Positions 6,438 through 9,662 of a stretch of DNA of 64,000 nucleotides are shown here, one piece after another. Where the stretch lies: the NCBI RefSeq assembly GCF_015751785.1, contig NZ_JADOTY010000001.1, positions 7,254,001-7,318,000 of the forward strand, given 5' to 3'. The notes under the pieces were generated by a model that ran no database searches, was not told the origin of the DNA, and was given only the letters and a program-made list of their open reading frames with translations. Positions within the stretch are counted from its first letter, which is position 1. Each line of letters opens with the position of its first letter. This DNA comes from Micromonospora vinacea. GTDB lineage: Bacteria; Actinomycetota; Actinomycetes; Mycobacteriales; Micromonosporaceae. The translations under genes and the position numbers were made by a program.

Positions 6438-7061
6438 TCAGACCGTCGGCTGCTGCGACACCTCGCCGCCGGCGGTCTCCGCGAGGATCCGCTCGGCGAC
6501 CTCTTTCATGGTCATCCGGTGATCCATCGCCGTGCGCTGGATCCACTTGAACGCCTGCGGCTCGGTCATCCCGTACGTGGTCATCAGCGCGCCCTTGGCG
6601 CGCTCCACCGACTTACGGATCTCCAGGCGGTCGGTCAGGCTCGCGACCTCCGCCTCCAGCGCCGCGACCTCCGAGTAGCGCGACAACGCGATCTCCACCG
6701 CCGGGACCAGGTCGCTCTTCTGGAAAGGCTTCACCAGGTACGCCATCGCGCCCGCCGCCCGCGCCCGCTCCACAAGGTCACGCTGGCTGAACGCGGTCAG
6801 AATGATCACCGGGGCGATCCGGGCACCGGCGATGCGCTCGGCGGCGGCCAGCCCGTCCATGATCGGCATCTTGATGTCGAGGATGACGAGATCGGGCTTC
6901 AACTCCTCGGCGAGGCGCACGGCTGTCTCGCCGTCACCGGCCTCCCCCACCACCTCGTAACCCTCTTCGACAAGCATCTCGGCGAGGTCCAGCCGGATCA
7001 GCGCCTCGTCCTCGGCGATCAGTACGCGCCTGCGCTCGGCATCCGTCGGCATCTCAGCCAC
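6438..7061 (-). CDS. pdtaR: ANTAR-domain response regulator (PdtaR-like)
   Basis: Response regulator of 207 residues. The receiver domain (about 12-125) has the acidic pair in LIAEDEALIRLD, the phosphoacceptor Asp in LVILDIKMPIMDG, the conserved Thr in ILTAFS and Lys in LVKPFQ. A short coiled segment (EVAALEAEVASLTDRLE) leads into a C-terminal ANTAR domain (RKSVERAKGALMTTYGMTEPQAFKWIQRTAMDHRMTMKEVAE), which binds RNA hairpins and causes antitermination. GTG 7061 is chosen because it gives the short N-terminus usual for PdtaR and has GGGGGTAGGG upstream; ATG 7052 is an alternative. Its sensor kinase PdtaS is not in this window. RNA targets are not predictable here. Confidence 0.9.
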   Translation of the reverse strand: MAEMPTDAERRRVLIAEDEALIRLDLAEMLVEEGYEVVGEAGDGETAVRLAEELKPDLVILDIKMPIMDGLAAAERIAGARIAPVIILTAFSQRDLVERARAAGAMAYLVKPFQKSDLVPAVEIALSRYSEVAALEAEVASLTDRLEIRKSVERAKGALMTTYGMTEPQAFKWIQRTAMDHRMTMKEVAERILAETAGGEVSQQPTV

Positions 7062-7166
7062 CAGCCCTACCCCCACCAGTCGGAACCCAACACCCGCCCA
7101 GCCGGGTGTCACCGCCCTCAGCGTAGTAGGTAACCTATGGGAGGCCACCAGAGCATTCGGCCAAGC

Positions 7167-7243
7167 GTCCCCGTATTCCAACCGGCAGAGAAGCGGAGCT
7201 CAAACCTCCGACAGTGTGGGTTCGAATCCCACCGGGGGCACCA
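7167..7243 (+). tRNA. tRNA-like gene with anticodon CAA (Leu) but a short variable loop
   Basis: A full cloverleaf can be drawn: acceptor 7167-7173 with 7233-7239 (one G-U), weak D-arm 7176-7192 with GG in the loop, anticodon stem CGGAG/CTCCG (7194-7198, 7206-7210) around loop CTCAAAC (anticodon CAA at 7201-7203, T33 and A37 present), a five-base variable loop ACAGT, and T-arm GTGGG-TTCGAAT-CCCAC. Discriminator A7240 is followed by encoded CCA. Anticodon CAA reads the Leu codon UUG, yet bacterial tRNA-Leu normally has a long variable arm. This one is class I shaped and its D stem has only three good pairs, so it may be a non-standard or degenerate tRNA. A reading-frame-like extension of the downstream gene runs back into it. 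Confidence 0.75.
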
Positions 7244-7275
7244 AACTTGTCGTACGGCTGTTCCAAAATCGTGCT

Positions 7276-8025
7276 GTGCACCCACCTGAACTGCGCCTAC
7301 GAGCACGGCAGCAGCACCTCGCCGGCAGCACGGTCGCTGAGGTCGCCCGACGACTGAGACTTCCCTATCCGACCGTCCGCGGCTGGTGCAGGGGGCAGGC
7401 TGAGCCACAACAGCAGGGCACCGAGTCCCGTTGCTTCCGCTGCCGGCCCAACGTCAACATTCAGACAGATCCGTCTTCATACCTATACCTGCTCGGCCTC
7501 TACCTGGGCGACGGTCATCTCGTCACGTCCGCCCGGGTCCCGGTGCTTCGCATCGCCTGCAGCGACAGCTGGCCAGGCCTGATCGACGCCTGTGACGCCG
7601 CTATGCGAGCGGTGCTAGCCGCGAGGGTGCAGCGCGTCCGGCAGGTCGGCTGCGTCAGCGTGCAAAGTTCCGGCAAGCACTGGCCGTGTCTGCTCCCCCA
7701 GCACGGCCCTGGCAAGAAACACGAACGCCCAATCATCTTGGCCGACTGGCAGCGCGATCTCGTGACGGCACACCCGGGCGACTTCCTGCGCGGGCTGTTC
7801 CACTCCGACGGCTGCCGGTTCGCCAACCGGGTGACCGTGCGCGGCAGGGCGTACGTCTACCCGCGCTACATGTTCGTCAACGAGTCGGCCGACATCATGG
7901 GGCTCTGCCAGTGGAGCCTCGATCTGCTCGGCGTCGACTGGCGGATGAGCCGACGCAACGCGCTGTCGGTGGCGCGACGCGACGCGGTCGCCACGGTGGA
8001 CCGGCACGTCGGCCCCAAGTCCTGA
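7276..8025 (+). CDS. HTH protein with two LAGLIDADG-like motifs, next to the tRNA
   Basis: Protein of 249 residues from GTG 7276, only 32 bases after the tRNA. Residues 1-40 form a helix-turn-helix resembling resolvase/Sigma-70 region 4 type HTH (AEVARRLRLPYPTVRGWCR). A CxxC pair (Cys53, Cys56) follows. Residues 72-80 (LLGLYLGDG) and 170-179 (FLRGLFHSDG) match the two LAGLIDADG motifs, each ending in the acidic Asp that binds metal in homing endonucleases. No splicing blocks of an intein are present, so it is a free-standing protein. Family members are often annotated as transcriptional regulators; whether this one cuts DNA or only binds it is not known. The start is uncertain because the frame is open back into the tRNA. 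Confidence 0.8.
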   Translation: MHPPELRLRARQQHLAGSTVAEVARRLRLPYPTVRGWCRGQAEPQQQGTESRCFRCRPNVNIQTDPSSYLYLLGLYLGDGHLVTSARVPVLRIACSDSWPGLIDACDAAMRAVLAARVQRVRQVGCVSVQSSGKHWPCLLPQHGPGKKHERPIILADWQRDLVTAHPGDFLRGLFHSDGCRFANRVTVRGRAYVYPRYMFVNESADIMGLCQWSLDLLGVDWRMSRRNALSVARRDAVATVDRHVGPKS

Positions 8026-8033
8026 CCTGACGC

Positions 8034-8885
8034 TCAGGCGCGGGCCATGGCTGGCGCGCCGATGAAGTCCATGATCGCCTTGTTGACCTCGTCGGCGTGC
8101 GTCCACGGGATGCCGTGCGGGGCGCCCTTGAGGGTGACGAGCTTGCCGTTGGGCAGCATCGGGGCGAGCCGCTGGCCGGTGACCGGGTAGGGCAGTACCG
8201 CGTCCTGGTCACCTTGGACGATGAGGATCGGCACGTCGATACGGGGCACGTCGGGGCGAAAGTCGGTGGAGATGGCGTCGATGCACTGGTACGTGGCGCT
8301 CGCGGAGGCGAGCCGGCCGATGGCCCAGTGCGCCCGGAACGCTTCCTCGCTGACCTGCTTGCCCTTGGTCTTGTCGTAGTTGAAGAAGCTGGTGCAGAAG
8401 GCGGTGAGGTAGGCGAACCGGTCCGCGAGGACGGCCTGCTTGAAGCCGTCGAAGACGCTTCCGTCGACCCCTTCGGGGTTGTCCGAGGTCTTGCGCAGGA
8501 ACGGGGCCAGGGGGCTGAGCAGCACTCCACGACTGACCCGGTCCGAGCCGTACCTGCTGAGGTAGCGGGTCACCTCACCGGTGCCCATCGAGTGACCGAC
8601 GAGGATGGTGTCGCGCAGGTCCAGCTCGGTCATCAGGGTGTCGAGGTCGGCGGTGAAGGTGTCGTAGTCGTACCCGGTGTCCGGTTGGCTGGAGGCGCCG
8701 AATCCTCGGCGATCGTAGGTGATCACGCGGTAGCCGGCGTTGAGCAGCGGGTTGGCCAGCTTCTCCATCGTGGCGCCGTTGAACGGGAAGCCGTGGATGA
8801 GCACGACCGGCTGACCGGAGCCGTGGTCCTCGTAGTAGATGTCGATGGCGGTGTTGTTCTCGGTGCCCACGGTGATGAACGGCAC
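8034..8885 (-). CDS. Alpha/beta hydrolase of the non-haem chloroperoxidase type
   Basis: Cytoplasmic alpha/beta-hydrolase of 283 residues starting at GTG 8885, which has GGGAGAG at the right distance upstream. The nucleophile elbow GHSMG (Ser99), the acid in GDQDAVLP (Asp228) and His257 (APHG) form a complete triad. The oxyanion region HGFPFNG and the NPEGVDGSVFDGF segment resemble bacterial cofactor-free haloperoxidases/esterases. Physiological substrate is unknown; the peroxidase name in this family usually reflects a side activity with acetate. It is transcribed alone and convergently with the HTH/LAGLIDADG gene (8 bases between stops). Confidence 0.88.
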   Translation of the reverse strand: MPFITVGTENNTAIDIYYEDHGSGQPVVLIHGFPFNGATMEKLANPLLNAGYRVITYDRRGFGASSQPDTGYDYDTFTADLDTLMTELDLRDTILVGHSMGTGEVTRYLSRYGSDRVSRGVLLSPLAPFLRKTSDNPEGVDGSVFDGFKQAVLADRFAYLTAFCTSFFNYDKTKGKQVSEEAFRAHWAIGRLASASATYQCIDAISTDFRPDVPRIDVPILIVQGDQDAVLPYPVTGQRLAPMLPNGKLVTLKGAPHGIPWTHADEVNKAIMDFIGAPAMARA

Positions 8886-9011
8886 GTTCGTCTCTCCCTG
8901 CCGGTTTGGTGGTGTCGGTCGGCGGGGCTTTCCCCAGCCGTCGGCGGTCATGCCGATCGTGGGAGCCTGCGAGGACGCGAGTGGCGAGGGTGACGACAGG
9001 GGTGGAATCTG

Positions 9012-9662
9012 ATGAGGGTGGTTGTCTTCGGTGCGACAGGGATGGTCGGTCAGGGCGTGTTGCGCGAGTGCCTGCTCGCCGATGACGTGCGGGAGGTGCT
9101 GACTGTCGGTCGGCGGCCGACCGGCCGGCAGGATCCGAAGCTGCGGGAGTTGACGGTCGCGGACGTCGGCGAGTTGGACGCGGTGCGCGCCGAGTTGACC
9201 GGGGTCGATGCGTGTTTCTACTGCCTGGGGGTGTCCTCGTTGGGTCTGGACGAGGCGGCGTACACGCGGGTCAGCTACGACTACCCGATGGCGGCGGCGC
9301 GGTTGTTCGCGGAGGTGAGCCCGCAGGTCACGTTCGTCTACGTCTCGGGTCAGGGGACCGATTCGTCGGGTCAGGGTCGGGTGATGTGGGCGCGGGTCAA
9401 GGGGCGTGCCGAGAACGCGGTCATGGATCTACTGCCCAACGGTTACGCGGCGCGGCCGGGGTTCATCCAGCCGACATACGGGGCGGTGTCGAAGACGGGG
9501 TGGTACCGGTTCGGGTACGCGGTCACCCGTCCGCTGTTTCCGGTGCTGCGTCGGTTGCTGCCGAACCAGGTCACCACCACCGATGGGATCGGTAGGGCGA
9601 TGTTGCGGGTGGCCCGGGAGGGTTCGCCCGTGCGGGTGTTGGGCAATCGCGAGCTGCGCTGA
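9012..9662 (+). CDS. NAD(P)-binding Rossmann-fold protein (epimerase/NmrA-like)
   Basis: Short atypical SDR of 216 residues. The N-terminus VVVFGATGMVGQGV contains the glycine-rich GxxGxxG dinucleotide site. FYCLGVSS and FVYVSGQGTDSSGQG correspond to strands 4 and 5; a Lys in WARVKGRAEN takes the place of the usual YxxxK. The C-terminal substrate domain is short, as in epimerase-like proteins of unknown reaction. The upstream region is shared with the divergent hydrolase gene. Its stop lies 3 bases from that of the PLP enzyme on the other strand. Reaction unknown. Confidence 0.85.
   Translation: MRVVVFGATGMVGQGVLRECLLADDVREVLTVGRRPTGRQDPKLRELTVADVGELDAVRAELTGVDACFYCLGVSSLGLDEAAYTRVSYDYPMAAARLFAEVSPQVTFVYVSGQGTDSSGQGRVMWARVKGRAENAVMDLLPNGYAARPGFIQPTYGAVSKTGWYRFGYAVTRPLFPVLRRLLPNQVTTTDGIGRAMLRVAREGSPVRVLGNRELR

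Follow-up and report, generated by a model that had tools for sequence, protein, structure and literature searches.

The window, which is the whole 64-kb stretch of DNA analyzed here, contains exactly one tRNA gene, identified by ARAGORN as a 77-nt tRNA-Leu with a CAA anticodon on the forward strand. The CCA end of this tRNA is followed 32 nt later by a gene for a 249-aa protein that combines a helix-turn-helix (HTH) domain with two LAGLIDADG motifs, and a LexA-type operator occupies the spacer between them. Upstream of the tRNA and divergent from it is a pdtaR-like gene, which served as a marker for the same locus in other genomes. The coordinates of these features are collected in Table 1.

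Table 1. Features of the tRNA-Leu(CAA) locus, in window coordinates
Feature	Position	Strand	Basis
pdtaR-like ANTAR response regulator, divergent neighbor; marks the orthologous tRNA-Leu(CAA) locus	6438..7052	-	ORF, conservation
Approximate exchange tract (starting near -95 of the tRNA and reaching the 3′ third of the gene), swapped as a unit in sister species	7072..7850	+	Sliding identity; coordinates transferred by inference
Class-I-shaped tRNA-Leu(CAA), CCA encoded	7167..7243	+	ARAGORN, Rfam, stem covariation across relatives
Anticodon CAA	7201..7203	+	ARAGORN (anticodon position 35)
5-nt variable loop ACAGT; final base U48, pairs with A15	7211..7215	+	Sequence, alignment of relatives
LexA-type (SOS) operator TCGTACGGCTGTTCCA between tRNA and gene	7250..7265	+	Pattern match, conservation in relatives
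HTH-LAGLIDADG protein, 249 aa, putative free-standing homing endonuclease	7276..8025	+	ORF, alignments, AlphaFold2, Pfam, Foldseek
N-terminal HTH, three helices, residues 4-38	7285..7389	+	AlphaFold2 model; Pfam HTH_28/HTH_23 below cut-off
LAGLIDADG motif 1, LLGLYLGDG, acidic D79	7489..7515	+	Invariant; D79 at end of helix 66-79
LAGLIDADG motif 2, FLRGLFHSDG, acidic D178	7783..7812	+	Invariant; D178 at end of helix 167-178

A leucine tRNA with a five-base variable loop

The initial annotation had read a CAA anticodon, a five-base variable loop, a D-stem mismatch and an encoded CCA at this locus, and all four were confirmed by ARAGORN, the sequence itself and the alignment of relatives, with the CCA at 7241-7243. 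ARAGORN assigned the locus to Leu(CAA) and to no other isotype, and the gene matched Rfam family RF00005 with 48.1 bits (E 3.3e-7). The long variable arm that defines class II tRNAs is absent and is replaced by the 5-nt loop. A minimum-energy fold of the RNA alone did not return the cloverleaf, and the secondary structure was instead judged by covariation among relatives. Across 53 class-I-shaped relatives compensatory changes keep all four stems paired, with one anticodon-stem pair being weaker (40/53). The D stem consists of three base pairs (10-12:23-25) and a C13 x A22 mismatch, constant in 53/53 of these relatives; A73 is likewise found in 53/53, and the 15:48 pair is A:U in 51 and G:C in 2.

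The key elements of E. coli tRNA-Leu are A73, A15-U48, G18G19 and A20a, while the long arm is dispensable (PMC9976931). Human mitochondrial tRNA-Leu(UUR) likewise accepts leucine with no such arm. The tRNA at 7167-7243 carries A73, A15-U48, G18G19 and a leucine-type D arm. Its body is therefore of the leucine type, as judged by the covarying stems, the C13 x A22 mismatch, A73 and the 15:48 pair, and we infer that it serves UUG codons as an ordinary leucine tRNA and would work without a long arm. The initial annotation took the long arm to be required for recognition by LeuRS, a premise that was too strong: E. coli tRNA-Leu variants without it stay active (PMC9976931). The mitochondrial tRNA and the armless E. 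coli variants resemble the tRNA described here in being leucine tRNAs without a long variable arm, and theirs are charged (PMC9976931); in contrast to both, the present case is a natural bacterial chromosomal tRNA-Leu subtype that is sometimes the sole CAA gene. We also considered whether an anticodon change in tRNA-Gly, tRNA-Arg or another class I tRNA had given rise to it, and rejected this on the strength of the leucine-type D arm and A15-U48.

A tRNA search of the genome gave 49 matches, in which the other leucine tRNAs (CAG, UAA, UAG and GAG) are all long-armed. No second CAA gene was found by this search or by separate searches for a long-armed Leu(CAA), making the tRNA at 7167-7243 the sole CAA tRNA found in the genome. 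On this basis an accessory or duplicate tRNA was rejected.

A pattern search that tolerated at most one mismatch picked up candidate genes for a short-armed Leu(CAA) or Leu(UAA) in 76/396 sampled Actinomycetota genomes, and ARAGORN called a short tRNA-Leu in 19/20 of the candidate loci that were fetched. Most genomes with such candidates lack the HTH-LAGLIDADG protein, indicating that the short-armed subtype is independent of it. On these sequence comparisons the tRNA belongs to a short-armed tRNA-Leu(UUR) subtype that is spread across Actinomycetota and keeps the known bacterial leucine identity elements, the long arm excepted. The idea that the putative homing endonuclease gene made the class I tRNA can be discarded, as the subtype is common without that gene. 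The initial annotation had proposed an accessory tRNA, which does not agree with a sole CAA gene or with a short-armed Leu(CAA)/Leu(UAA) type found in many Actinomycetota and mostly without the protein, and we found no evidence for the decoy role that it had also suggested. In several actinobacterial families a tRNA-Leu(UAA) with a short variable loop occurs besides the CAA type.

An HTH-LAGLIDADG family beside tRNA-Leu genes

The ORF and the alignments confirmed the protein with LLGLYLGDG and FLRGLFHSDG that had been described 32 bases past the tRNA. Although the frame has no stop from 7216 onward, a position within the tRNA, several Streptomyces relatives have an open frame only past the tRNA. 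The likely initiation codon is therefore the GTG at 7276, which alignment places at a conserved V/M-HPPE... start. In an AlphaFold2 model of the protein (pLDDT 86) the HTH has three helices and precedes two LAGLIDADG repeats. An alignment of 35 actinobacterial and 3 phage sequences shows no variation at the acidic residues D79 and D178. The best Foldseek match of the model in the PDB was I-Tsp061I (E 2.8e-7), followed by a maturase, I-AniI and I-DmoI; WhiA was also among the fold matches. The Pfam LAGLIDADG_3 score of 19.7 bits lies under the curated cut-off of 22.5, which is a detection threshold and not a biochemical criterion, and 18/22 aligned family members match LAGLIDADG_3 at E up to 0.01. 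Pfam gave no match to a GIY-YIG domain in the protein, and the fold of the model is LAGLIDADG.

The family was found in 56/101 genomes searched, as a single copy in each, and 55 of these are Micromonospora, the window's genome included. Prevalence within the genus is thus 55/61 genomes, with the gene missing in 6/60 other Micromonospora, and a large genome collection holds at least 499 relatives of the protein. A tRNA-Leu(CAA) gene lies just upstream in 109/110 fetched loci, which bears out conservation of the tRNA-protein pair in relatives, and the single exception had no more than 100 nt of flanking sequence. Chance would not produce pairing at anything like this rate. A phylum-wide profile search returned about 30 clear matches, nearly all adjoining a tRNA-Leu gene. 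At CAA genes both the 3′ and the 5′ side and both orientations occur, and UAG, CAG and UAA isoacceptors are involved as well. The varied sides, orientations and isoacceptors imply that the family has been placed beside tRNA-Leu genes repeatedly and independently. Streptomyces copies sit about 110 nt behind the tRNA. Two family members adjoin tRNA-Trp(CCA) and not tRNA-Leu, which hints at a shift of target.

No known phage or plasmid carrying the gene was matched in INPHARED or PLSDB, and mobile copies came only from IMG/VR contigs. Three AT-rich, phage-like contigs from this source have the family gene 4-16 nt after a tRNA-Leu(UAA). A fourth phage-like contig has four tRNA-Leu genes, with UAA, UAA, UAG and short-armed CAA anticodons, and a distant relative at 27-29% identity lies among them.

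Allele replacement, decay and a LexA-type operator

The locus can be followed between species by its neighbors. pdtaR was upstream of the tRNA in 65/65 Micromonospora loci tested and is found there in Streptomyces too, making the pdtaR - tRNA-Leu(CAA) locus orthologous between the two genera; the next gene there is pyruvate kinase. At this same locus the tRNA is of class I in some species and class II in others, and the gene is present or absent. Between M. arida and M. saelicesensis, which have a class II and a class I tRNA, respectively, the synonymous difference is 0.7% in pdtaR and 44% in the gene. Synonymous difference is higher in the gene than in pdtaR in 99.9% of pairs, and amino-acid change in the gene remains lower. 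Sliding identity between close pairs falls off some 95 nt ahead of the tRNA and rises again within the 3′ third of the gene. Over 65 loci, tRNA class was linked to the first 30 codons of the gene (z 19), the association had faded by codon 150, and for pdtaR it was absent (z 0.0). These patterns indicate that in sister Micromonospora with near-identical flanks the tRNA class and the 5′ half of the gene have been replaced together.

The gene also decays. About nine Micromonospora copies are broken by a frameshift or stop, one copy has an internal deletion, and all that a Streptomyces allele retains is a short C-terminal remnant beyond the tRNA terminator. Strains without the gene exist with either tRNA class. 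The empty sites in Micromonospora differ by larger rearrangements that blur the exact insertion point. Loss, decay and co-replacement form the pattern that would be expected from homing with co-conversion, which we take as their probable cause, and it is possible that the class flips arose by ordinary recombination rather than by cleavage.

The operator TCGTACGGCTGTTCCA is the only match in 64 kb within one mismatch of TCGTACN4GTTCGA, where 0.11 were expected, and it agrees at 11/12 positions with the form that precedes lexA and recA. The similar sites in the genome are TCGTACAGATGTTTGA before lexA and TCGTACACCTGTTCGG before recA. Exact TCGTACN4GTTCGA sites number six in the genome, most of them not before recognized SOS genes, and a reversed control pattern gave none. 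The operator scores at least 11/12 in 68/76 related Micromonosporaceae loci, while five gene-less alleles reach only 6-8. In Micromonosporaceae, LexA probably represses the gene until DNA damage. No terminator was predicted between the tRNA and the gene in this genome, which makes it plausible that transcription would run on from the tRNA into the gene, with LexA as the gate. The Streptomyces copies had no LexA box at a convincing level, and one gene-less Streptomyces allele has a terminator-like hairpin within the spacer behind the tRNA. The LexA-type operator of this genome is asymmetric, TCGTAC-N4-GTTCGA, and not the palindromic TCGAAC-N4-GTTCGA. A radical-SAM-like protein with an intein-like insertion begins near one exact TCGTACN4GTTCGA site.

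A putative tRNA-Leu homing endonuclease and its alternatives

The fold, the motifs and the dynamics of the locus place the protein among the LAGLIDADG endonucleases, and we consider it likely that it is a free-standing homing endonuclease specialized for tRNA-Leu genes, controlled by the SOS response in Micromonosporaceae and carrying a tRNA allele along with it. Under this model, DNA damage would lift LexA repression of the gene at a time when RecA-dependent repair is active, and the endonuclease would cut tRNA-Leu alleles that lack its gene or whose tRNA body differs. Repair templated by the donor would then copy in the gene together with the adjacent tRNA, overwriting the recipient tRNA-Leu(CAA) and at times flipping it between the class I and class II shapes. 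The comparisons support the suggestion in the initial annotation that the tRNA is tied to a selfish LAGLIDADG element whose likely target is the tRNA gene.

Two other readings of the protein were weighed against a homing endonuclease. WhiA is a degenerate homing endonuclease turned transcription factor. A domesticated LAGLIDADG protein could similarly regulate transcription or processing of the neighboring tRNA-Leu, and the N-terminal HTH, the high prevalence in Micromonospora, the mostly purifying change and the association of HTH type with tRNA class are all compatible with such a role. However, both LAGLIDADG acidic residues are invariant, whereas WhiA has lost its catalytic residues and has an N-terminal LAGLIDADG part followed by a C-terminal HTH (PMC3781837). 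WhiA (DUF199) and the present protein share the combination of LAGLIDADG and HTH in Actinomycetota, as well as a fold match, but here the HTH comes first and the features that define WhiA/DUF199 were not found. Several genomes, with one tRNA class or the other, have lost the gene or have a broken copy, and the side and direction in which it lies with respect to the tRNA differ, with several isoacceptors involved. The retained acidic residues, the order of the domains and the fact that the gene can be dispensed with thus count against a domesticated regulator, which we regard as unlikely. Considerably less probable still is a nuclease or toxin acting on tRNA, for which the linked, structurally different tRNA-Leu would be the resistant, immune version. 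The tRNA body does change along with the N-terminal half of the gene, phage copies do lie within tRNA arrays and the control is of the SOS type, but LAGLIDADG endonucleases act on DNA, closely related proteins occur with both tRNA classes, either class is retained in gene-less strains, and PADLOC gave no match to the 249-aa protein.

The pairing of a leucine anticodon with a class I shape could also mean that the tRNA is charged with something other than leucine and reassigns UUG codons. The tRNA retains the determinants known for leucine tRNAs of bacteria (A73, A15-U48 and the leucine-type D arm) and no other CAA tRNA was found in the genome, and we give this reading hardly any credence. Returning to the homing endonuclease, a more far-reaching version is that SOS-induced homing drives replacement of the host's only tRNA-Leu(CAA), with class I and class II tRNAs acting as cleavage-resistant functional substitutes and a core tRNA being repeatedly reshaped. 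We put this forward tentatively, as somewhat doubtful; if true, a selfish element repeatedly remodels a core tRNA.

Several known systems offer partial parallels. SegB of phage T4 is a free-standing endonuclease that targets a tRNA intergenic region and is needed for preferred inheritance of the tRNA region (PMC2988022). It resembles the present gene in being lodged among tRNA genes and tied to a tRNA region, but it is a GIY-YIG phage gene, whereas here a LAGLIDADG gene resides mainly on bacterial chromosomes, with a preference for tRNA-Leu and a LexA-type operator. I-Tsp061I and I-DmoI share the two-motif LAGLIDADG fold and are among the nearest PDB folds, but they are intron-encoded, while the present protein has an additional N-terminal HTH and its gene lies beside a tRNA with no intron. 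Mycobacterial tRNA clusters contain HNH endonuclease genes and a short-loop tRNA-Leu(UAG) (PMC6582537), likewise placing homing-type nucleases near unusual tRNA genes; those clusters are large, probably phage-derived and of the HNH type, in contrast to the single conserved tRNA-Leu locus described here.

No report of the protein family or of a short-armed actinobacterial tRNA-Leu was found in the open-access text that was searched, and at that scope the lack of a report is weak evidence. Nor did we find, in combination, a chromosomal LAGLIDADG family specialized for tRNA-Leu, natural bacterial leucine tRNAs lacking the long arm, and sister species in which the allele of a single-copy tRNA has been replaced. 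The locus opens three questions to experiment: whether selfish endonucleases are a driving force in how core tRNA genes evolve, whether LeuRS of actinobacteria can do without the long arm, and whether homing and the SOS response can be coupled.

The locus has another variable spot right after the gene, at 8034-9662, where genes for an alpha/beta hydrolase and an NAD-binding protein are absent from close relatives that share about 94% identity in the flanks.
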